From positions 124,001 to 188,000 of the forward strand of contig NZ_WBKA01000001.1 of assembly GCF_008831125.1 (NCBI RefSeq): 64,000 nt of DNA. The letters are read 5' to 3'. The first letter of the stretch is position 1; each line of letters begins with the position of its first letter. This DNA comes from Pseudoclavibacter caeni (GTDB lineage: Bacteria > Actinomycetota > Actinomycetes > Actinomycetales > Microbacteriaceae). Under the pieces are notes generated by a model. The model ran no database searches. It saw nothing but the letters and a program-made list of their open reading frames with translations, and was not told the DNA's origin. Positions 944 to 17,361 of the stretch are shown here, piece by piece. A program made the translations under genes and the position numbers.

Positions 944-2149
944 GTGAGCAGCGAACTTCCCCTCTCTCCGCGCATCCTGTCCATCCACGAGTCAGCCACG
1001 CTCAAAGTCGACGCCAAGGCGAAGGCCCTGAAGGCACAGGGCCGACCCATCATCAGCTACGGCGCCGGCGAGCCCGACTTCCCCACGCCGGCGAACATCG
1101 TCGACGCCGCCCGGCGCGCCCTCGGTGACCCGACCAACTTCCGCTACACCCCGGCCTCGGGCCTGCCCGAGCTCAAGCGGGCCGTCGCCGCGAAGACGCT
1201 GCGCGACAGTGGAGTCGAGGTCGACCCGGCGCAGGTCGTCATCACCAACGGCGGCAAGCAGGCCGTGTACGAGGCCTTCGCCACGCTCGTCGGCGAGGGC
1301 GACGAGGTCATCGTCCCGGGCCCGTACTGGACGACCTACCCCGAGGCCATCCGCCTCGCCGGCGGCCGCCCGGTGACGGTCTTCGCCGGCGCGGACCAGG
1401 GCTACCGGGTCACCGTCGACCAGCTGGAGGCCGCCCGCACCGACCACACCCGGCTGCTCGTGTTCGTCTCGCCCTCCAACCCCACCGGCGCCGTGTACTC
1501 CCCCGAGGAGACCGCGGCGATCGCCCGCTGGGCCGTCGAGCACGACATCTGGATCCTCGCCGATGAGATCTACCAGAACCTCACCTACGACGGCGTCGAG
1601 GCGCACAGCATCGCCTCGGCGATCCCGGAGGCGGCCGCGAACACGGTGCTCGTCAACGGCGTCGCGAAGACGTACGCGATGACCGGCTGGCGCGTCGGCT
1701 GGCTCGTCGGGCCGCGACGGGTGGCGAAGGCCGCGTCGAACATGCAGTCGCACCTGACCTCGAACGTGTCGAACATCTCGCAGCGCGCCGCGATCGAGGC
1801 CCTCACCGGCCCTCAGGACGCGGTGGCCGCCATGCGCGCCGCCTTCGACCGGCGACGGCGCACGATCGTCGCCGAGCTGTCGCGCATCGAGGGATTCACC
1901 GTGCCGACCCCGCAGGGGGCGTTCTACGCCTACCCCGATGTCACCGGCGTGCTCGGCCGCACCTGGCACGGCGTCACCCCGACCACCTCGCTCGAGCTGG
2001 CCGACCTGCTGCTCGAACGGGCAGACGTCGCGGTCGTGCCCGGCGAGGCCTTCGGCCGCAGCGGCTACCTGCGCCTGAGCTACGCGCTCGACGACGCGTC
2101 GCTGCTCGAGGGCGTGCAGCGTCTGCAGCACTTCTTCGCCGAGGGCTGA
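944..2149 (+). CDS. Pyridoxal-phosphate-dependent aminotransferase (aspartate aminotransferase type)
   Basis: A 401-residue fold-type I, class I/II aminotransferase. Visible motifs are the cofactor-loop region ([16 protein letters not shown]), the substrate/PLP segment [12 protein letters not shown], the Asp-containing [10 protein letters not shown], and the PLP lysine in [16 protein letters not shown], where Lys forms the Schiff base. A C-terminal Arg in GYLRLSYA binds the substrate carboxylate. It most resembles bacterial aspartate aminotransferases of the Igamma type, which transfer an amino group between aspartate and 2-oxoglutarate; some relatives also accept prephenate. The start is GTG 944, reading [11 protein letters not shown], set by the promoter spacing. 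The gene is monocistronic, and divergent from the tRNA-Trp unit. Confidence 0.9.
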
Positions 2150-2292
2150 GACCCTACCCGTCGTCTCACGCGCGGGTGAACAGTCGCGCGCGCACTCGAT
2201 AGACTGGGGATGAACCCCGCGGGGCCCGACCCCGGCGCGACGTCCGACGTCACGCGAGTCCGCACCCGCATCCCTCAGGAAGGCGAGGCAAC

Positions 2293-2679
2293 ATGACGGA
2301 TCGACGTCCGCTCACGACGCTCGTCGGCGACATCTCGTCCGACGTCCAGGAGCTGGTGCACGAGGAGATCGCGCTCGCGAAGGCGGAGGTGCGACAGTCG
2401 GCCCGCAACGCCGCCGTGGGCGGCGGCCTGTTCATCGCGGCCGGGCTCACCGCGGTGCTCGCCCTGTTCTTCCTCGCGCTCGCCGCCTGGTGGGGCCTCG
2501 GGCTGCTGATCGGCAACGCGCTGTCCGGCCTGGTGCTGGCCGTCGTGCTGCTCGTCATCGCGGGGATCGCCGTCGGCGTCGGCGTGCGACGGGTCCGGCG
2601 TGTCAAGGGCGCGCCACGCACGGTGGAGTCCGTGCGCGGTCTCGCCCGGTCATTCACCCCTGAGAGGAGCCGGCGATGA
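2293..2679 (+). CDS. Phage-holin-superfamily III (DUF1469-like) membrane protein
   Basis: A 128-residue protein with an N-terminal amphipathic helix (VGDISSDVQELVHEEIALAKAEVRQSA) and two adjacent transmembrane helices (residues ~43-63 and ~70-97), then a basic tail. This matches the actinobacterial putative actinobacteriophage holin III family, which in chromosomes is a housekeeping membrane protein of unknown role rather than a phage lysis gene; there is no other phage gene nearby. An AGGAAGG ribosome site precedes the ATG, and a TAGACT box at 2200-2205 is the likely -10. It overlaps the next gene by 4 nt (ATGA), so the two are translationally coupled. Confidence 0.75.
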   Translation: MTDRRPLTTLVGDISSDVQELVHEEIALAKAEVRQSARNAAVGGGLFIAAGLTAVLALFFLALAAWWGLGLLIGNALSGLVLAVVLLVIAGIAVGVGVRRVRRVKGAPRTVESVRGLARSFTPERSRR

Positions 2680-3038
2680 GCGCCAGCGTGTACAGCGACC
2701 CCACGGACCGTCCCGCGGATCTGCGCGATCCGAACGCGGTACCGCCGCACCCCAAGCACTCTGAGACCGCCGATGCCCGCCCGGCGGCCGCCCCGCGGCA
2801 TCCCCTGCTCGACGACCCCGAGGCGCTGCTGCCCGCGAACGCTTCGGAGGCAGACCACATCGTCGCGCGCATCGAGCGCGCCCAGCGGTCGCTCTCCGCG
2901 AACGTCACGGAGCTCGTCGACCGGGTCGACCCGGTGGCCCGGGTGCAGCAGGTGAAGCGCATCGCGAAGCGGGCCGCGATCGGGGCGGCGGTGGCCGTCA
3001 CGACGCTGCTCGTCATCCGCCGGCTGCGCCGCCGCTGA
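2676..3038 (+). CDS. DUF3618 domain membrane protein
   Basis: A 120-residue protein. The first half is polar and Pro-rich. The second half carries the DUF3618 pattern: IVARIERAQRSLSANVTEL, then VDRVDPVARVQQVKR, then one short transmembrane helix (AAIGAAVAVTTLLVIRRL) and a basic end. DUF3618 proteins commonly sit directly after the holin-III-like protein in actinobacteria, as here. The pair may act together at the membrane, but no function is known. Starts at the ATGA overlap. Confidence 0.75.
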   Translation: MSASVYSDPTDRPADLRDPNAVPPHPKHSETADARPAAAPRHPLLDDPEALLPANASEADHIVARIERAQRSLSANVTELVDRVDPVARVQQVKRIAKRAAIGAAVAVTTLLVIRRLRRR

Positions 3039-3131
3039 TCTCGCGCCTCGCGGAGCCCCGGCCGCAGCTGGGGCGCCGACCGTCGCCGCGAGGCCGGCGG
3101 GCGGGTGCCCGCCGGTCTGACGCTGCGCCGA

Positions 3132-4298
3132 CTAGTTCTCGACGAAACCGAGCAGCAGCGGCTCGGGCTGCAGCGCGATGCCGAACTCGCCGGCCACCCG
3201 GGTCTGCACGAAGGTGGCCAGCTCGATGACCTGCCGCGCCGTCGCCCCGCCCCGGTTCGTGATGGCGAGCGTGTGCCGCGAGCTGATCGCCGCGTGCGAG
3301 CCCGGCAACGCGAGGCCGCGGCGCACCCCGGCATGCTCGATAAGCCAGGCGGCGCTGAGTTTCACCATCCGCGGCGGGCGCCGCGTGCCGTCGGGCTGCA
3401 GCTCGTCGCCGCGGTAACGCTCGAGCGGGATCGCCGTGGGCACCGGCTCAGGGCCCGCCGCCACCGGCCAGCGCGGGGCCTCGCGCGGCAGGTCCGCGGC
3501 GAACGACGCGTGCACGATCGGGTTCGTGAAGAACGAGCCGCAGCCGTGCGTGTCCGGATCGGCCGGGTCGTAGACCATGCCCTTCGCCCGACGCAGGGCC
3601 AGCACCGCCTCGCGCACCCGGTCGACCGGGGCCCGGGTGCCGACCGGCACCCCGAGCGCATCAGCGAGCTGGGCGTAGGCGACGGGCGCCGACCGGCCAT
3701 CCCGGTGCAGGCGCACGGTGATGCCGATCACCACCCCCTCCAGCTCCTCGCGCTTGAGCGCGCTCGTGCGGTAGCCGAGGCCGAGCGCGGCGGCGGGGAC
3801 GGTACGCAGCGTCCCGGTGTCGGCGTCCGCCAGCTCGATCGACACGAGCGCCTCGCCGACCTCGTGGCCGTAGGCGCCGATGTTCTGGACGACGGACGCG
3901 CCGGCCCGCCCCGGGATGCCGCTGAGCGACTCGATGCCGCCGAGACCGGCGGCCACGGTGCGGGCGACCGCCTCGTCCCAGATCTCGCCGGCCGCGATGT
4001 GCACGTCGACCGTGCCATCGCCGTTGTCGACCTGCTGGTGGCCGATGTTGCGCACGCGCAGCACCGCGCCGTCGTAGCCCTCGTCGGCGACCACGAGGTT
4101 CGAGCCCCCGCCGAGCACCACGTGCTCGTCCTGCGGGCCGTCCATCTCAGCGAGCGCGTCGAGCGCCTCCGCGGGGCTGGTGATGTCGAGCACCCGTTCG
4201 GCGCCCCCGCCGACGCCCATGGTCGTCTCGTCGGCGAAGCGGAAGCCCACGTGCCCGCTGTCGGTGCCGACCGCCCCGTCCGCCACCGCGGCGCTCAC
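3132..4298 (-). CDS. murB: UDP-N-acetylmuramate dehydrogenase MurB
   Basis: A 388-residue flavoenzyme that reduces UDP-N-acetylenolpyruvoylglucosamine to UDP-N-acetylmuramate with NADPH, in the cytoplasmic part of peptidoglycan synthesis. It shows the FAD-binding segments (VVLGGGSNLVVADEGYDG; LSGIPGRAGASVVQNIGAYG) and the catalytic-Ser region GCGSFFTNPIV. It lacks the Tyr-loop insert of type I enzymes as far as I can see. It follows the hydratase pair with a 4-nt overlap and is transcribed with it. The hadA-hadB-murB order is a familiar actinobacterial neighbourhood although the pathways differ. Confidence 0.95.
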   Translation of the reverse strand: MSAAVADGAVGTDSGHVGFRFADETTMGVGGGAERVLDITSPAEALDALAEMDGPQDEHVVLGGGSNLVVADEGYDGAVLRVRNIGHQQVDNGDGTVDVHIAAGEIWDEAVARTVAAGLGGIESLSGIPGRAGASVVQNIGAYGHEVGEALVSIELADADTGTLRTVPAAALGLGYRTSALKREELEGVVIGITVRLHRDGRSAPVAYAQLADALGVPVGTRAPVDRVREAVLALRRAKGMVYDPADPDTHGCGSFFTNPIVHASFAADLPREAPRWPVAAGPEPVPTAIPLERYRGDELQPDGTRRPPRMVKLSAAWLIEHAGVRRGLALPGSHAAISSRHTLAITNRGGATARQVIELATFVQTRVAGEFGIALQPEPLLLGFVEN

Positions 4299-9938: not shown

Positions 9939-11009
9939 TCAGCCGAGCCGACGTCGGGCCCGCTCCACGGCCGCGTCGGCCTCGGGGTCACCCTCGGCCA
10001 CCGGCGCGGTGCGCCCGGCCCACGGGCGCAGGACGCTGAACACCGGCCGCCCGTCCGGGCCCGCCGGCAGCGGGGTCACCCCGTCCTCGGCGACCGGCCA
10101 CGGCAGCGGAGCCGACGCCGCACCGGCCGGGACACCCCCGTCGCCGGTGGCGGGCGAGGCTGAGGTCGCGGGCGGAGCCGGGATGACCGATGCGACCGGG
10201 CCCGGGGCCCCTGCTGCTCTCACGGGCCCGGCGACGCGCGCCCGGGCGGGCGCGGCCCGCGCCGCCCGACGGCGGTCGCGCCCCGTCCACCAGGTCAGCA
10301 GCACGTCGATCGACGCCGCGAGGAACGCGAGCATCGCGACGATCACGATCAGACGCCCGAACCAGTCGCCGACCTCCACGCGGAACGACCGCCCCAGCAG
10401 GAGGGGCAGGAACAGCACGACCGCGAGCGCGCCGAGCAGCCCGGCTGAGACCCAGGTGAGGGCGCGCAGCGTCCGGTCGGTGCCCGCGGGGCGCAGGAAG
10501 AGCCAGACGGCCACCACCGGCAGCTTGGCCACGACGAGCAGCGGGACGAGCATCAGCAGGGCGATCCCGGCGTTGTCGCCGCCACGGGCGAGCCGGTCGC
10601 CCGCCGCCACCGGCTCGAGCCAGGTCAGCAGCGTGCACCAGGCGAGGACGTACACGCTGGTGACCACGCCGAACGCCACCGGGTACCCCCGGTCGCGGTC
10701 GGCGATCGCGAGCTCGCCGATGGTCACCCCGACGAACATCCCGAAGAGGATGATCGTGACGATGACTTTCGTCCCCCGGGCCGGCACATCGCCGAGGAAC
10801 AGCGACACGATGACGAGCAGCGTGATCGCGACGAGCGCGCCGATCGCGATCCAGAGGCCCGGGGGCAGGCGCCGCCGGGCGGGCGCGGACGCCGCCGGCA
10901 CAGCGGTGCCCGGGGCGGACGGTACCGGCGGGGCGCCCGTCGCCGGTGCGTCAGCCTCCGGCGCGGATCTGGATGCGGGCTGGGTGCTGGGGACTTCTGG
11001 GGCGTCCAT
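9939..11009 (-). CDS. Six-helix membrane protein of unknown function
   Basis: A 356-residue protein with a Pro/Ala-rich cytoplasmic N-terminus (about 45 residues), six clear transmembrane helices between residues ~50 and ~250 (first: LWIAIGALVAITLLVIVSLFLG), and a long Ala/Pro-rich tail ending ERARRRLG. No family recognised. ATG 11009 is chosen: a TAAGGT box (11022-11017, minus strand) lies exactly 7 nt upstream. The transposon boundary falls at the outer edge of that box, and the duplicated TTA restores it. An alternative start inside the IS (GTG 11072) would add 21 residues in frame. Expression may have changed, because the original -35 has been replaced by IS sequence. Confidence 0.7.
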   Translation of the reverse strand: MDAPEVPSTQPASRSAPEADAPATGAPPVPSAPGTAVPAASAPARRRLPPGLWIAIGALVAITLLVIVSLFLGDVPARGTKVIVTIILFGMFVGVTIGELAIADRDRGYPVAFGVVTSVYVLAWCTLLTWLEPVAAGDRLARGGDNAGIALLMLVPLLVVAKLPVVAVWLFLRPAGTDRTLRALTWVSAGLLGALAVVLFLPLLLGRSFRVEVGDWFGRLIVIVAMLAFLAASIDVLLTWWTGRDRRRAARAAPARARVAGPVRAAGAPGPVASVIPAPPATSASPATGDGGVPAGAASAPLPWPVAEDGVTPLPAGPDGRPVFSVLRPWAGRTAPVAEGDPEADAAVERARRRLG

Positions 11010-11022
11010 GCCTCTCACCTTA

Positions 11023-11976
11023 GAGTTTGCGCCGTTTGGTGACTTGCCGATGGGTTGAGGTGGGGTGGGCACGGGGTCTGTTAATCACGATTGTGTGAAG
11101 AATACGTGTATCAACAGGATTCCCCGTGCCCGCGGTTCCATCATCGGTCATTGAGCCTATCTGGTGCCAGTTCGAGGCCCTCATCCCTGCCGTGGCCGAT
11201 AAGCACCCGCTGGGATGTCACCGCCCCAGAGTGCCGGATCGGGTGGTCTTCGACAAACTCATCCAGGTGCTGGTCTTCGGTGTCGCTTACCGGAAGATCG
11301 AGGATGCGTCGTGTTCGGCCACGACGATCCGGCGCCGCCGAGACGAATGGATCGCCGCCGGGATGTTCACCCGACTCGAGCAGATCTGTCTGGACGGCTA
11401 CGACAAGATGATCGGCCTGGAACTCGAGAACGTGGTCGTCGACGGATGCATCGTGAAAGCCCCCTGCGGTGGCCAGGCCGCCGGCCCATCACCGGTGGAT
11501 CGGGGCAAACAGGGCACGAAACGCTCCCTGATGGTCGACGGCCAGGGCATCCCGATCGGCTGTGTGACGGCAGGAGCCAACCGCAACGACTCACCCCTGC
11601 TCGAGGCGACTCTGGACAAACTCGCCAGGTTCGGCTTCGACCTGCCCGAACAGATCACCGTCCACCTCGACGCCGGATACGACTCGCACAAGACCCGTGA
11701 CCTCCTGGACACGCTCGGCTGCGATCACCAGATCAGCACCAAGGGCGAACCCCTCCAAGCCGGTGCCCGCTGGGTGGTCGAACGCACGAATTCCTGGCAC
11801 ACCAGGGGATTCCGCAAACTCCAGATCTGCACCGAAGTCCGCACCCGAGTCATCGACGCGTTCATCGCCTTCGCAAACGCCATCATCATCACCCGAAGAC
11901 TCATCGCCCAAGCCTGGACCAGATACCGCTGGAACAACAGACCACACAAACAACCATGACCAAACGGCGCAACCTC
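11023..11976 (+). mobile_element. Insertion sequence, IS5 family type, copy 1
   Basis: 954 bp, from GAGTTTGCGCC to GGCGCAACCTC. The terminal inverted repeat is about 18 bp with one mismatch (left GAGTTTGCGCCGTTTGGT; right end reversed GAGGTTGCGCCGTTTGGT). One transposase gene fills it. Reading it against copy 2 I see one substitution (C 11935 versus T 16755, synonymous). Confidence 0.93.
11126..11959 (+). CDS. IS5-family DDE transposase, copy 1
   Basis: A 277-residue transposase starting at GTG 11126 (VPAVPSSVIEPIW). It has an N-terminal helix-turn-helix region (residues ~25-85, with DUF4096-like VFDKLIQVLVFGVAYRKIED) and the DDE catalytic triad: first Asp in NVVVDGCIVKAP, second in VHLDAGYDSHKT, Glu in WVVERTNSWHTRGFRKL. 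The YREK-like signature is represented by ERTNSWHTRGFRKL. It appears intact, so the element may still be active. A single unbroken frame is present, without the frameshift seen in some IS5 relatives. Confidence 0.93.
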   Translation: MPAVPSSVIEPIWCQFEALIPAVADKHPLGCHRPRVPDRVVFDKLIQVLVFGVAYRKIEDASCSATTIRRRRDEWIAAGMFTRLEQICLDGYDKMIGLELENVVVDGCIVKAPCGGQAAGPSPVDRGKQGTKRSLMVDGQGIPIGCVTAGANRNDSPLLEATLDKLARFGFDLPEQITVHLDAGYDSHKTRDLLDTLGCDHQISTKGEPLQAGARWVVERTNSWHTRGFRKLQICTEVRTRVIDAFIAFANAIIITRRLIAQAWTRYRWNNRPHKQP

Positions 11977-11986
11977 TAAGCGCTGG

Positions 11987-13216
11987 GTGACACCACCGAC
12001 GGACCGATCAGATCGACCGGTGGCGGTCGTGGTCGCTGACAGTCTGCTGGCGCAGAGGGAAGGTCTCGCACTGGCGCTCACCGAATGGGGGCCGGACGTC
12101 GTCATCTGGGACGAAGCGCACCGGGGAAAGACCTACGGCTCCCGACGCAGCGAAGCGGTCCTCCAGCTGACCCACGACTGCAGGGCGCAGGGCATCGCCG
12201 TGACCGGTACGCCAATGCTGAAGTCGCCGGCGGAGCTCGCACCGCTGATGGAGTTCACCGGTCAGGACGTCTCTGTGTTCGGCGGGCTCCGGCAACTGCT
12301 CGACCACACCTGCACACTCGACCGGTACGGGCGTCTGCGGCCCTCCCGCAAAGGGGAGGACTGGCTGCAACAGAAGCTGTCAGGTGAGGTGATGATCCGC
12401 CGCACCAAAGCGCAGGTGAGCCCCCAGCTGCCGCCGAAGCACCGGTACCCGATCTACATCGACGCACCGATGGCGGAGTTCAACCGGGCTCACAAGGAGA
12501 TCAACCAGAAGATCGACACGTGGCTGAAGGAGTGGCGCAAGCAGCACGGGGCCCTCCCCGACCACGAGGCGATCCTCGACTACGCGAACGGCAACCTCGG
12601 GTACATCTCACAGCTGCGACGCGCTGCCGGTGTCTGCAAAGTTCCCGTTGCCGAGGTGATGATCGCGCAGCACATCGCTCAGACACGGTCTGATGACGGC
12701 ACCTTCAGTGACCCGCTGATCGTCTGGACTCACCACAAGGAGGTCACTGAGGTGCTGGCGACGAAAGTGCCTGACATCGACGGTGCGGCGATGATCATCG
12801 GCGGCATGAACCGGCAGCATCGCGATCATCTGATCGACGAGTTCCAAGCCGGTCGTGTCGGGGCACTCGTCTGCTCCACACATGCGGCCGGTGTGGCGAT
12901 CACACTCACCCGGTGCCACAGCATGCTGTTCGTGGAGACCGACTGGACCCCTGGGATCGTCGTCCAGGCGGAAGACCGGGCCCACCGCACCGGCCAGACT
13001 GCAGACCAGGTGTCCATCGGCACCTTGGTCTGTCAGGGGACGCTCGACCCTATCGTGCAGGCGACGCTGCATCGGAAGGCGCAGTTCCTAGACGCGACCA
13101 TCGGCGGCGACAACAGCGTCTACGTCGACGAGGACGACGATCTCACAGCTACGGACGTGCTCGTGAACCTGATTCAGGCTCGGGTTGATCAGATGACGTC
13201 ACATGTCAGACGCTGA
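11987..13216 (+). pseudogene. SNF2/DEAH-type helicase, N-terminally truncated by the IS
   Basis: 409 codons remain. The fragment starts just 5' of motif II (VVIWDEAHRGKTYGS, residues ~36-50), then motif III (GIAVTGTPML) and the C-terminal RecA lobe with motif V (LVCSTHAAGVAITLT) and motif VI (QAEDRAHRTGQTADQ). This is the SWI2/SNF2 helicase layout, closest in feel to SMARCAL1-like and phage or plasmid helicases. Motif I (Walker A) and the first ~100 or more residues are missing. The frame is closed off inside IS copy 1, where an in-frame stop lies upstream. Without the Walker A it should not hydrolyse ATP. GTG 11987 can initiate, but probably only marks where the fragment begins. Confidence 0.82.
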
Positions 13217-13321
13217 TCTCCGGCCCAAGCTGGGGCTTCTGCGCGTACCGACCGTCTGAGGTGCGGGCTGCATAGATGGGTGCCGTGGATAGCAGCCAAT
13301 GGACAAAACCCGTTCATTCTC

Positions 13322-13349
13322 TTCGACTATGCGTGACGCATGATACGGT
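13322..13349 (+). promoter_or_regulatory. Promoter with palindromic operator for the bacteriocin-like gene
   Basis: TTCGAC (13322-13327) and TACGGT (13344-13349) are 16 bp apart and fit a -35/-10 pair. The spacer contains the perfect inverted repeat ATGCGT-G-ACGCAT (13329-13341), a plausible repressor site. The gene starts 30 nt further on behind an AGAGAGG ribosome site. Assigned by eye. Confidence 0.4.
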
Positions 13350-13379
13350 ACGCCTGTAACCAAAAGAGAGGAAACCTGC

Positions 13380-13874
13380 ATGACACTCACAGGGACAAAT
13401 CTCGTCAAAGCGCTGATCGCAATGGTCTGCGCAGCACTCGTTGGTCTCGGTATGGTCAGCCCGGCCACCGCCGCAGAGAATGATCAAAGCACAACCAAGG
13501 TACAGCTGCTGACGTCATCCGGAGCGCTCCAGGAGGCTGCAGTGCACGCTGGAGTCTCGACGGAGTTCCTGGCCGCGAACCTCGTTGATGTCGTAGACCT
13601 GCAGCAAGCTCGGGAGATCTCTACTCAGGAGCATGCAAAGGTGCTGCCGGATTCAACGCCTTCACTGAGCTGCCAGCCATCTGAAGGTCAGGTCACAACT
13701 TACGGTTGGGGTATCCACTGTGCACGTGCCTGGGCCGGGTATGGGCTGTACACCATCTGGGGCACAGCAATCTGCGGACTGGCCGCAGCTGGCTCCGTTG
13801 GAGCACTGGGCATCCCCTGCGAACTGCTGTTAGCGGCTGGCAGCGGAGCCATCGACTGGAACTCGGTCTGCTGA
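13380..13874 (+). CDS. Secreted Cys/Gly-rich bacteriocin-like precursor
   Basis: A 164-residue preproprotein. Residues 1-32 are a Sec signal peptide (Lys10, hydrophobic core LIAMVCAALVGLGMV, AxA-type site at TAA-EN). Residues 33-~95 form a polar helical pro-region. Residues ~98-164 are a Gly/Ala/Trp-rich hydrophobic module with five cysteines (C98, C114, C132, C147 and the final residue C164), for example WGTAICGLAAAGSVGALGIP. This layout recalls halocin C8-like and other Cys-rich class II bacteriocin precursors, but no signature settles it. Directly downstream, 7 nt away, is a small two-helix membrane protein, a typical place for an immunity protein. AT-richer than the host genes. An exported cell-surface peptide of other function remains possible. 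Confidence 0.6.
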   Translation: MTLTGTNLVKALIAMVCAALVGLGMVSPATAAENDQSTTKVQLLTSSGALQEAAVHAGVSTEFLAANLVDVVDLQQAREISTQEHAKVLPDSTPSLSCQPSEGQVTTYGWGIHCARAWAGYGLYTIWGTAICGLAAAGSVGALGIPCELLLAAGSGAIDWNSVC

Positions 13875-13881
13875 GGCCACT

Positions 13882-14067
13882 ATGAAGAAGCGCATTCTGT
13901 GGGCGGTTGCGGTGCTTGCGCTCTCCTCGTATGTCGCTCTATTCGTTGGATGTCTGATCGGTGGCGGTGGTGCACAGCAGTTCATCAACATGCTCCTGCC
14001 ACACACCTTCGTCATGGTTCCATGCGCCGCAGCTGTGGGGTGGTGGAGCATCCATCGAAATCGATAG
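13882..14067 (+). CDS. Small two-TM membrane protein, possible immunity protein
   Basis: A 61-residue protein starting MKKRILWAVAVLALSS. It has two transmembrane helices (about residues 5-27 and 40-56) joined by a Gly-rich loop (IGGGGAQQF), and a basic C-terminus (HRNR). A GAGG site stands 6 nt upstream of the ATG. It begins 7 nt after the bacteriocin-like gene and so is probably in the same transcript. Small cationic membrane proteins in this position often give producer self-protection; there is no sequence family to confirm that here. Confidence 0.6.
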   Translation: MKKRILWAVAVLALSSYVALFVGCLIGGGGAQQFINMLLPHTFVMVPCAAAVGWWSIHRNR

Positions 14068-14070
14068 GCA

Positions 14071-14129
14071 CAGAGCCCCGGAGCCCTGCTGACAGCAAGA
14101 TGGCGAGTCAGAGAAGGCCCGGGGCTCTG
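14071..14129. repeat. Inverted repeat, possible terminator
   Basis: CAGAGCCCCGG (14071-14081) is exactly complementary to CCGGGGCTCTG (14119-14129), separated by 37 nt. It lies 3 nt after the small membrane gene, so it may end that transcript. The loop is long and no T-run follows, so it is a weak terminator call. Confidence 0.4.
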
Positions 14130-14284
14130 AGTCCCTACTGGCGCCAGTATCGGTGGCGCATCTTGCAGGTCGCTGGATGCAGCTGCGCGTCGACGTCCAC
14201 CGTGAGTGATGAACCTGCACGGGGATACCGTGACAGCACCCTCGTCTTGGTGCGGTGGATTCACTCAGTCCTCGGCTGTCACGT

Positions 14285-14296
14285 TAGGCTCAAGCC
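14285..14296 (+). promoter_or_regulatory. Leaderless-type -10 of the SRAP gene
   Basis: TAGGCT at 14285-14290 ends 6 nt before ATG 14297. This matters because the SRAP catalytic cysteine must be residue 2. Confidence 0.55.
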
Positions 14297-14968
14297 ATGT
14301 GTGGACGAATCGTGCAGGCGAAGACCAGTGACTACGTCGCTCTGTTCGACGTCGCCCAAGTCGAAAGTTCCGGTTTTGAGCCGTCGTGGAATCTGAAGCC
14401 GACGCAGGATGCGCTGATCGTGCTCGACGGCGACAAGGACGGGGTTCGCCGTCTCGCGCCGGCGCGCTGGTTACTGGTGCCGACGTGGTCGAAGACCCTG
14501 AAGCTGAAGTTCCCGACATTCAACGCTCGCATCGAGACCGCGGGCCAGAAGCCGACGTTCCACGCCTCGATGACACGGAGACGCTGCATCTTCCCCATCG
14601 ACGGATACTACGAGTGGCAGACCGCCGGCAAGTCGAAGACCCCCTTCTACGTGCATCGCGACGAGCCGTTCGGACTCGCAGGCCTGTACAGCTGGTGGCA
14701 TGACCCTGCAGCCAGTGCCGACGACGGCTGGGCGCTGACTGCGACAGTCCTCACCCAGGACGCCGCTGCCCCGCTCGCGTGGTTGCATGACCGCATGCCG
14801 GTGACCATTGAGCGCACCCTCGTCGACGCGTGGCTGGACCCCGAGGTCGACGGCAACGCCTTGACCGGGGAGCTGACCCGCTCGAGCATCGAGACCGCTG
14901 GATCGCTCGCCTGGCATGAGGTCGCACCGCTGAAAGGAAACGGCCCGGAGCTCACTGCGGCACTCTGA
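14297..14968 (+). CDS. SOS response-associated peptidase family (SRAP/HMCES/YedK)
   Basis: A 223-residue SRAP protein. It begins Met-Cys-Gly-Arg, so Cys2 becomes the N-terminal residue after Met removal and can form the thiazolidine crosslink with an abasic site in single-stranded DNA. Other family residues are visible: Asn32 in PSWNLKP, Glu in DGYYEWQ, and His in WLHDRMPVTI. It shields abasic sites from strand breakage at forks. Such genes are common as cargo on plasmids, phages and transposons. Its TAGGCT promoter makes it an independent unit of the cargo, and it seems intact. Confidence 0.92.
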   Translation: MCGRIVQAKTSDYVALFDVAQVESSGFEPSWNLKPTQDALIVLDGDKDGVRRLAPARWLLVPTWSKTLKLKFPTFNARIETAGQKPTFHASMTRRRCIFPIDGYYEWQTAGKSKTPFYVHRDEPFGLAGLYSWWHDPAASADDGWALTATVLTQDAAAPLAWLHDRMPVTIERTLVDAWLDPEVDGNALTGELTRSSIETAGSLAWHEVAPLKGNGPELTAAL

Positions 14969-14974
14969 AAGCGG

Positions 14975-15842
14975 TCACTGCCGCCAGTAGCGGTCTTTCA
15001 TCTCAAACGTCACCGGGCGCAGCTGCACATCGGCGGAGCAGGAGATACGGTCGCCGAAACTGATCTTGGTCTTCGGCACGGTCATTTCGTTGCCGTCTCC
15101 GACGCCGTCGGTGAGCGTGGGGTCGGCGCGGTCGTTTCTCGTGCACGTCCAGTTGTACTTGTACCAGGCCGGTGAGGAGCCTGCGACATCGACCCGGTAC
15201 TTCAGGTCCGATCCGCTGAGGAACACTCGGCTGTCGGTGCTCTGCGTCTCCCCCGGTGCTGCGTCGACCGAAGCGGAGTTCGACCCTGAGCTCACCGAGG
15301 CCGTGAACTTCGGGTCATCACCGCGTGCATCGGATGGTGCTTTCACTGTGGCGCTGGCCTTCGTCACCAGGAACCCGAAGATGGCACCGTTCGGGGTGTC
15401 CGCGCGAATTTCCTGATCGATGTACCCGGGCGCGTAGCTGTAGTAGAGGATGTTCCCGGACTTCTGCACGTCGTACTGCATGAACGGCCAGAACGGCCCG
15501 TTGACCGGGTGCAGGGTGCCGCCGGCAGGGCCGGTGTAGGTGACGAGCAGCCCGGTGGTCTGCGTGCGGGTGTCGTCGCAGCCTCGACCTGTCCCTCCCT
15601 GCAGCGATGCGAGCTTCGTCAAGGTCTTATCGGACCGGAACATGACAGTCTCGCCGGCCTCCGTGGACTCCGAGTCACCGGTCACGAAAGCGTAGTCCGG
15701 AACGGGAGCGCCAGTCGGGTCGGTGACCGTAATCGAATCGATCCTCATGGAGACGCCGGAGCCCTGCTGACCGTGGAACAGCAGGGCAGGCTGGCCAGCG
15801 ATCGATTCGAAGCCGGTGTTGCCGAGACCTGCGGCGTAGTAA
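14975..15842 (-). pseudogene. Exported or surface protein, C-terminal fragment cut by IS copy 2
   Basis: About 289 codons remain, reading leftward from the IS boundary (YYAAGLGNTGFESI...) to the stop at 14975. The composition is that of an extracellular beta-rich protein: Thr/Ser/Gly-rich, with segments such as RIDSITVTDPTGAPV and several cysteines (GRGCDD, WTCTRN, RISCSAD). It has no LPXTG or membrane anchor at the C-terminus. I do not recognise the family. Its N-terminal part, including any signal peptide, was removed. A GTG at 15892 inside the IS gives an in-frame 16-residue IS-derived leader (MPTPPQPIGKSPNGAN), so a hybrid product is conceivable, but without a signal peptide it would stay inside. 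Confidence 0.7.
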
Positions 15843-16796
15843 GAGTTTGCGCCGTTTGGTGACTTGCCGATGGGTTGAGGTGGGGTGGGCACGGGGTCTG
15901 TTAATCACGATTGTGTGAAGAATACGTGTATCAACAGGATTCCCCGTGCCCGCGGTTCCATCATCGGTCATTGAGCCTATCTGGTGCCAGTTCGAGGCCC
16001 TCATCCCTGCCGTGGCCGATAAGCACCCGCTGGGATGTCACCGCCCCAGAGTGCCGGATCGGGTGGTCTTCGACAAACTCATCCAGGTGCTGGTCTTCGG
16101 TGTCGCTTACCGGAAGATCGAGGATGCGTCGTGTTCGGCCACGACGATCCGGCGCCGCCGAGACGAATGGATCGCCGCCGGGATGTTCACCCGACTCGAG
16201 CAGATCTGTCTGGACGGCTACGACAAGATGATCGGCCTGGAACTCGAGAACGTGGTCGTCGACGGATGCATCGTGAAAGCCCCCTGCGGTGGCCAGGCCG
16301 CCGGCCCATCACCGGTGGATCGGGGCAAACAGGGCACGAAACGCTCCCTGATGGTCGACGGCCAGGGCATCCCGATCGGCTGTGTGACGGCAGGAGCCAA
16401 CCGCAACGACTCACCCCTGCTCGAGGCGACTCTGGACAAACTCGCCAGGTTCGGCTTCGACCTGCCCGAACAGATCACCGTCCACCTCGACGCCGGATAC
16501 GACTCGCACAAGACCCGTGACCTCCTGGACACGCTCGGCTGCGATCACCAGATCAGCACCAAGGGCGAACCCCTCCAAGCCGGTGCCCGCTGGGTGGTCG
16601 AACGCACGAATTCCTGGCACACCAGGGGATTCCGCAAACTCCAGATCTGCACCGAAGTCCGCACCCGAGTCATCGACGCGTTCATCGCCTTCGCAAACGC
16701 CATCATCATCACCCGAAGACTCATCGCCCAAGCCTGGACCAGATACCGCTGGAATAACAGACCACACAAACAACCATGACCAAACGGCGCAACCTC
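15843..16796 (+). mobile_element. Insertion sequence, IS5 family type, copy 2
   Basis: 954 bp in the same orientation as copy 1 at an exact offset of 4820 bp, with the same ends. Flanks are TAA on the left (15840-15842) and TTA on the right (16797-16799). The mismatch between its own two flanks shows that it is not a simple independent insertion in its present context. Confidence 0.93.
15946..16779 (+). CDS. IS5-family DDE transposase, copy 2
   Basis: 277 residues, identical in protein sequence to copy 1 as far as I can read, with the same Asp (VVVDGC), Asp (LDAGYDS) and Glu (VVERTNSW) residues. The only base difference noted is the synonymous AAC/AAT change near the end. Two intact transposase genes mean that either copy could drive movement of the whole unit. 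Confidence 0.93.
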   Translation: MPAVPSSVIEPIWCQFEALIPAVADKHPLGCHRPRVPDRVVFDKLIQVLVFGVAYRKIEDASCSATTIRRRRDEWIAAGMFTRLEQICLDGYDKMIGLELENVVVDGCIVKAPCGGQAAGPSPVDRGKQGTKRSLMVDGQGIPIGCVTAGANRNDSPLLEATLDKLARFGFDLPEQITVHLDAGYDSHKTRDLLDTLGCDHQISTKGEPLQAGARWVVERTNSWHTRGFRKLQICTEVRTRVIDAFIAFANAIIITRRLIAQAWTRYRWNNRPHKQP

Positions 16797-16821
16797 TTAG
16801 GCCCGGGCATTGACAGCCCGC

Positions 16822-17361
16822 TAGGCTTGAGCCCCCCCGCAGCACCGCGGGAGCCCAGGAGGAGTCACGATGACCACGCCCCCCATCTGATGACCGCACC
16901 CCGCCGTCCTACACCACCCCGCGGGGGCGTGCCGGGCGCCGGAGCCCCCATCGGGCCAGTCAGTGGTCACCCCAGCAGACGCCCTGGCCGCAGCAGACCG
17001 GCCCCTGGCAGCAGCCGGTCGCCCAGCGCGCGCCAACACGATGGCGATCCTCTCACTCGTGATGGCCTTCGTCTTCTGGCCGCTGGCGATCGTGTTCGGG
17101 CACATCGGCCTCGCGCAGATCCGCCGGACCGGCGAGGAGGGGCGTGGCCTGGCGGTCGCGGGCCTCGTGATCGGATACACCGCCCTCGGCCTGCTCGTGC
17201 TGTGGCTGCTGTTCTTCCTGATCGCGGTCGGCGCGTCGACCTCGACGACGGGCTGCGCCGCCCGAGGACGCCCGGGCCGCGAGCTCGACCGCCAGCTCAG
17301 TCCTCCGCCGGTGCACCCTCACGGCTCGCGTCGAGCATCCCGCGCCGCGAGACGATCTTGA
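16822..17361 (+). pseudogene. DUF4190 membrane protein gene, frameshifted
   Basis: A TAGGCT box (16822-16827), a strong AGGAGGAG site and ATG 16870 open the frame MTTPPI, which stops at codon 7. Dropping one C from the run after ACG restores a Pro/Gln/Trp-rich leader that includes QWSPQQTPWPQQTGPWQQP. A second slip in the CGCGCGCC stretch near 17032 is then needed to reach the conserved DUF4190 body, TMAILSLVMAFVFWPLAIVF, then GHIGLAQIRRTGEEGRGLAVAG and the second helix. Both ends are thus in one frame and the middle is not. The rest may still be made from an internal ATG at 17041, but the leader is destroyed. The 3' end overlaps fprA antisense by about 65 nt. It lies directly beside the transposon. 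Confidence 0.65.

Follow-up and report, generated by a model that had tools for sequence, protein, structure and literature searches.

The present analysis suggests that a composite transposon of the IS5 family in the actinomycete Pseudoclavibacter caeni carries a two-gene cassette whose first product may be a Sec-exported pro-bacteriocin, with a C-terminal module freed outside the cell, and whose second, a protein of 61 residues, would confer immunity. We put the chances of this functional reading at about even. The pair lies in a 64,000-nucleotide stretch of contig NZ_WBKA01000001.1 (assembly GCF_008831125.1, positions 124,001 to 188,000), hereafter the window, whose numbering is used throughout. 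An earlier note, made from the letters of this stretch, had proposed a mobile bacteriocin and immunity pair. The transposon-borne two-gene cassette stands, and an antimicrobial role is the best reading of its anatomy, whereas homology lends that role no support. Judged by this anatomy, an antimicrobial function of the pair is plausible.

The precursor gene (13380-13874, plus strand) encodes 164 residues, and the motif AGAGAGG lies eight bases 5′ of its start codon. By simple scripted rules, applied in place of a dedicated predictor, residues 1-32 or thereabouts have the makeup of a standard Sec signal peptide, with Lys-10, a hydrophobic stretch at residues 8-26 (mean hydropathy 2.38), and the motifs ATA and TAA ahead of the predicted 31/32 cleavage point. 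There follows an acidic linker (residues 33-96, charge −6), in which no dibasic or double-Gly site was seen by eye, and then a hydrophobic C-terminal module (residues 97-164) that contains 12 Gly, 11 Ala, 4 Trp, and 5 Cys. The cysteines are residues 98, 114, 132, 147, and 164, so that the Gly/Ala/Trp-rich module with five cysteines, the last of them the final residue of the protein, is indeed as the earlier note described it. That note passed over the acidity of the module (pI 4.65, charge −2.5). A predicted structure of the module, built without an alignment, was poor (pLDDT 64.3), and a structure search with this low-confidence model returned zero PDB matches.

The candidate immunity gene (13882-14067, plus strand) starts seven bases past the precursor stop, and both the positions of the two reading frames and the gap between them are as first claimed. 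Likewise borne out is the description of its product as a basic protein of 61 residues with two hydrophobic stretches: the pI is 10.3 and positive residues stand at both ends. The protein is predicted to be a two-helix membrane protein, the hydrophobic stretches being modelled by AlphaFold2 (without an alignment) as helices at residues 2-26 and 31-60, with a mean pLDDT of 78.7. The best match apart from itself (42% identity over 56 residues, E 0.0014) came from one of 388 family genomes; it aligns 13882-14064 with 1501-1674 of the matched segment, which is the N-terminal part, the first membrane hairpin, of a 278-residue protein. Downstream of the aligned part that protein carries the motif EELFFRG, which by eye we take to mark a CPBP-type intramembrane protease-like protein. 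Bacteriocin immunity proteins are known among the CPBP proteins. Since 388 genomes were searched, an E value of 0.0014 may well arise by chance, and the likeness is probably fortuitous.

A strong hairpin, probably a transcription terminator, lies directly behind the pair (14067-14133, plus strand; −43.2 kcal/mol, z −5.29), and none of 200 shuffled sequences was as stable. It was absent from the earlier note; because it has a long loop and no T-tract, it was not called by the terminator scan. The seven-base spacing, together with this single hairpin behind both genes, suggests that the two are read as one transcript. A search of 11000-17000 against Rfam gave no matches at gathering scores. Upstream of the precursor gene, a palindromic operator had been placed between −35 and −10 boxes. 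The perfect palindrome ATGCGTgACGCAT is present at 13329-13341, but the boxes around it are a reading by eye: a σ70 consensus scan of 12900-14500 found 0 promoter-like sites, with 0.3 expected. Palindromes of the same kind (6-nt arms, loop of no more than 3) occur in 53 of 3555 tiles of 18 nt in the window and in 130 of 392 tiles of 163 nt. In the 2.06-Mb genome the extended palindrome has one exact match, its own site, and one more with 2 mismatches. The palindrome is thus best described as a weak signal and a possible operator.

That the pair is cargo of an IS5-family composite transposon, as the earlier note held, is well supported by the paired insertion sequences, by the matching triplets outside them, and by the empty site in congeners. 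The left copy (11023-11976, plus strand; transposase frame 11126-11959; ends GAG...CTC) and the right copy (15843-16796, plus strand; transposase frame 15946-16779) differ within the element by one base, at 11935, and are the only two matches to their transposase in the genome. The right-copy transposase matches NF033580 (transpos_IS5_3, E 5.2e-48), and the left-copy protein is identical to it. The triplet TTA stands outside both copies (11020-11022 and 16797-16799) and TAA inside both. The outer pair, probably a target duplication, is what a move of the whole element would be expected to leave; TTA and TAA are reverse complements, however, and the triplet match alone is therefore weak evidence. 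Stronger evidence comes from relatives. The right flank of the element has matches in 4/4 searched genomes of the genus, own included. In two of the three congeners an orthologue of the left-flank gene (50% identity) lies ~0.5 kb from the right-flank DUF4190 gene, and in the third a TPR gene from further left and an oxidoreductase gene from the right are ~0.25 kb apart. By blastn at E 0.001 against a 16-kb stretch of each congener, the element is absent from the site in 3/3.

The rest of the 3.9-kb cargo (11977-15842) bears on where the pair came from. Next to the left insertion sequence, which probably truncated it at its 5′ end, lies an SNF2-type helicase gene (11987-13216, plus strand; PF00176 and PF00271), whose PF00176 match begins at profile position 127 of 290, the first SNF2 part being missing. 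Beyond the pair are a gene for an SRAP protein (SOS response-associated peptidase; 14297-14968, plus strand; PF02586, E 1.4e-55, profile positions 1-208 of 214) and a gene fragment (14975-15842, minus strand; 287 residues read), whose 5′ end was probably cut, because its frame continues into the right insertion sequence. The fragment has no Pfam or NCBIfam family and no plasmid relatives at E 0.001. Among the cargo genes, one of them this fragment without a family, no exported protease, transporter, or regulator is recognizable.

The eight best plasmid matches of the helicase (36-43% identity) are to Micrococcales plasmids of 375-608 kb from Curtobacterium, Arthrobacter, Pseudarthrobacter, and Paenarthrobacter, and on at least three Arthrobacter or Pseudarthrobacter megaplasmids the helicase relatives sit in a common block of genes. 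Cargo-like DNA was found in 18 plasmid records, 14 of them through the SRAP gene (two from Microbacteriaceae) and 4 through the helicase. Among phages, 663 records match the helicase, with 25-33% identity among the matches listed. One of 99 genomes of the order besides its own matches at E 1e-20, and 3 loci of Halobacterium, at 22% identity, were all that the scan of the genome collection returned. Because relatives of both the helicase and the SRAP gene occur on actinobacterial plasmids, such a plasmid is the probable source of the cargo, which may represent a section of some actinobacterial megaplasmid with an SNF2 helicase beside a full-length SRAP gene; a phage source is also possible. The pair itself stands apart in base composition: its GC3 is 63-64%, compared with 79% for the transposase, 81-83% for the other cargo genes, and a mean of 89% for the 32 long reading frames of the window. 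The pair therefore seems to have its own history and to have entered the source replicon separately. Eight helicase- or SRAP-relative neighbourhoods, fetched from among the many listed, contain no pair of this arrangement.

The earlier note had added that the sequences matched nothing it could name, and our searches likewise found no relative of either protein. Pfam gave no match for the precursor, the module, or the 61-residue protein at a reporting limit of E 10, and NCBIfam at the same limit gave only rows far below cut-off (for the precursor, best E 0.13; for the 61-residue protein, E 0.015, with 14.6 bits against a cut-off of 437), HMMER's filters discarding most matches above E ~0.1 whatever the reporting limit. 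PDB sequences returned for the module a single row, an antibody chain at E 0.13. In tblastn searches of plasmids, the whole precursor and the module recovered only 6 records, from unrelated proteobacteria at E 6-9, and searches of phages found no relative of the whole precursor (E up to 10) or of the module (E up to 1). Scans for close relatives, which require an exact stretch of peptide, found none of the precursor in the genome collection (84,980 species) or in viral contigs; the 61-residue protein has none in plasmids or viral contigs.

Whole genomes were searched in samples that overlap, and each count includes the own genome. The precursor matched 52 of 398 genomes of the family and 2 of the 4 of the genus, both at E 0.1; residues 78-164 matched 10 of 396 genomes of the order at E 0.01, and residues 25-164 matched 3 of 394 of the class at E 0.003; the best E value apart from its own gene was 8.5e-4, in one genome. 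For the 61-residue protein, 5 of 388 family genomes matched at E 0.003, again counting its own. Among 44 of these weak hits, from both proteins, that came with a locus and a readable frame, none proved to be a short exported precursor with a Cys-rich module ending in Cys; one frame of 126 residues ending in Cys was rejected, since it has only 3 Cys and, by eye, no signal peptide. Our literature searches brought up nothing that we recognized as the pair, although it may be in print nonetheless. Since no relatives were found, conservation of the gene pairing could not be demonstrated. Bacteriocins lacking close relatives are frequently encountered, so an orphan peptide with a plausible partner is not surprising by itself.

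In layout, the pair resembles halocin C8, whose active C-terminal fragment is described as freed by cleavage of a longer precursor (PMC12893001): a Cys-rich module forms the C-terminal end of a precursor predicted to be exported, and its release would be analogous. The earlier note had likened the cassette in layout and size to those of halocin C8-like and Cys-rich class II bacteriocins; on comparison, membership of the halocin C8-like and of the pediocin-like family was rejected. Unlike a halocin C8-like protein, neither precursor nor module matches TIGR04449: the comparison of the module with family models that the note had suggested gave no Pfam match, and TIGR04449 was missing from the NCBIfam rows of both precursor and module up to E 10. 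The same model at E 0.001 matched 0 of 296 phylum genomes, own included, and one of 14 control genomes, that of Haloferax volcanii. As for class II, class IIa bacteriocins have a second Cys soon after the first. The segment YGWGIHC (residues 108-114) of the module recalls the YGNGV box attributed to these peptides (PMC3546714), with Trp for Asn and Ile for Val. Unlike a pediocin-like peptide, however, it continues as ARAWAGYGLY, with no second Cys nearby, and belongs to a protein that has a Sec signal peptide and no Pfam match.

Actinobacterial systems offer further parallels. PAMP of Propionibacterium jensenii, compared here by its description rather than its sequence, is reported as a 198-residue proprotein with a 27-residue signal peptide, the C-terminal end of which is freed by outside proteolysis (PMC5756557); the precursor studied here, of 164 rather than 198 residues, is likewise actinobacterial and has a signal peptide, and an analogous C-terminal release may be proposed for its module. 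Propionicin T1/thoenicin 447, also actinobacterial, is described as Sec-exported, with a positively charged mature form of 65 residues, and for propionicin T1 the mature part is placed right behind a 31-residue leader and an ABC-type protein downstream (PMC5756557). The pair shares with it the actinobacterial host, the Sec signal peptide, and a C-terminal part of similar size (~65 residues), and differs in having an acidic module set behind a linker and a 61-residue hairpin downstream instead of an ABC-type protein. In circular bacteriocin clusters, a small, cationic, hydrophobic immunity protein is given as a basic feature, an ABC transporter, a membrane protein, and the immunity protein accompany the precursor, and the peptides of group ii are characterized as hydrophobic with a net charge lower than that of group i (PMC6131525). 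The pair resembles group ii in its hydrophobic module of low net charge and its small cationic hydrophobic partner. Unlike circular bacteriocins, it has five Cys and a Sec signal peptide, and the cargo, made up of a helicase fragment, the pair, the SRAP gene, and one fragment without a family, holds no ABC transporter or recognizable cluster gene; membership of that class was accordingly rejected.

If the pair is a bacteriocin cassette, it would have been picked up as cargo of the IS5-family composite transposon. The precursor would be exported by the Sec pathway and its signal peptide removed near residues 31/32, and an extracellular protease of the host or of a neighbour might then cut the Ser/Pro-containing linker at about residues 87-97, freeing a hydrophobic module of ~67 residues. 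The module could fold as helices with two disulfides and one Cys left over, the fold being a low-confidence prediction, and by analogy would insert into the membranes of competing Gram-positive bacteria and permeabilize them, while the co-transcribed 61-residue hairpin in the producer's membrane would block insertion there. We favour this reading because the precursor combines a signal peptide, a linker, and a Cys-rich module ending in Cys; because a small basic partner with two hydrophobic stretches begins seven bases on and a hairpin closes the unit; because the setting is mobile, GC3 is distinct, and the arrangement did not recur in 3000 modelled sequences; and because there are actinobacterial Sec-exported precedents and, in circular clusters, cationic immunity proteins.

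Several features weigh against it. Many Gram-positive bacteriocins are cationic. Tabulated examples carry charges of +3 to +8 (PMC6131525), and the module is acidic. Its number of Cys is odd, its model is poor and without a PDB match, and the linker offers no dibasic or double-Gly site; no consensus promoter was found, the palindrome is weak, the codon score is low, no antimicrobial homology was found, and the cargo supplies no recognizable protease, transporter, or regulator. That the pair represents a new actinobacterial bacteriocin family, a transposon-borne cassette of an acidic, Cys-terminated helical peptide with five Cys, cut from the C-terminus of a Sec-exported proprotein, and a 61-residue two-helix immunity protein, we consider a tentative proposal, with chances somewhat short of even.

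The acidic module, so unlike cationic peptides, also counts for the strongest competing explanation. In this view the Cys-rich precursor belongs to a mobile element and is exported for some purpose other than killing, such as surface change or exclusion of plasmid or phage entry, and the 61-residue protein serves it as chaperone or partner in the membrane. The neighbouring helicase and SRAP genes, which point to a plasmid- or phage-like source, fit this, and plasmid entry-exclusion pairs often consist of an exported or lipid-anchored protein and a membrane protein. Neither protein, however, matched PHROGs or PADLOC at E up to 1, and the arrangement occurs in 0 of 5 helicase-bearing plasmid segments of ~25 kb each. 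We regard this explanation as unlikely, yet as one to be taken seriously beside the bacteriocin.

The form of a basic two-helix hairpin is shared by small membrane toxins and holins. The 61-residue protein might thus be a holin-like or type I toxin-like product that merely neighbours the exported protein, with no joint function; Foldseek comparison of its model with the PDB gave 27 matches, the best at E 5.6 and none telling, which leaves room for this view. The seven-base spacing and the one hairpin behind both genes, suggesting a single transcript, argue against it, and we judge it improbable.

The chance of an accidental arrangement was gauged by scanning for frames that encode a signal peptide and carry four or more Cys among their last 70 residues, with one within the last 3, and for, starting near the precursor stop, a partner of 40-110 residues with two hydrophobic stretches. 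The criteria were chosen after the pair was known, and the partner threshold was loosened once, its first setting having missed the true partner; the scan is therefore a descriptive control that yields no p-value. In 487,566 bases, from which 10 own-genome loci (mostly copies of the pair's place) had been left out, it found the full arrangement in the window's pair alone, plus one frame without a partner. Both reading frames of the pair have the best codon score of the six frames, and the score is low beside local genes (−0.07 per codon, against 0.34 for the helicase and 0.29 for the SRAP gene, which themselves belong to the training set). That the pair is a non-functional or decaying remnant or a chance couple of frames hitchhiking between truncated genes is the least probable explanation: two cargo genes do look truncated, the coding score is low, no relatives were found, and a first-order Markov model of the cargo yielded a precursor-like frame without a partner in 50 of 3000 sequences, but it yielded the full arrangement in 0 of 3000, and the pair has its signal peptide, ribosome site, tandem layout, and hairpin in order.

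Should the bacteriocin reading prove true, the pair would stand for an antimicrobial peptide family invisible to the sequence libraries searched here, and it would be easy to express, since it has no recognizable export machinery of its own. It would further imply that competition genes can enter small actinobacterial genomes as simple composite-transposon cargo. Even if it lacks killing activity, the pair remains a clear example of exported orphans carried by a mobile element.

Two minor observations concern exported proteins elsewhere and the insertion site. A plasmid of Gryllotalpicola protaetiae gave an architecture hit that was rejected as an arginine-rich frame without a partner. The segment of this plasmid that was read encodes, at its positions 1866-3795, two adjoining exported proteins whose signal peptides and linkers are identical nearly to the letter and whose C-terminal parts differ, as if modules had been swapped behind a common export region. 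Of two exported proteins of the plasmid with a loose likeness to the precursor, one was compared with it and is not a relative (E 0.079, a single comparison). At its left end, the transposon inserted ~13 bases 5′ of the start codon (11009, minus strand; span 11009-11023) of a membrane-protein gene, which two of the three congeners have at the corresponding position; with the insertion so close to the start codon, this gene has probably had its promoter replaced.
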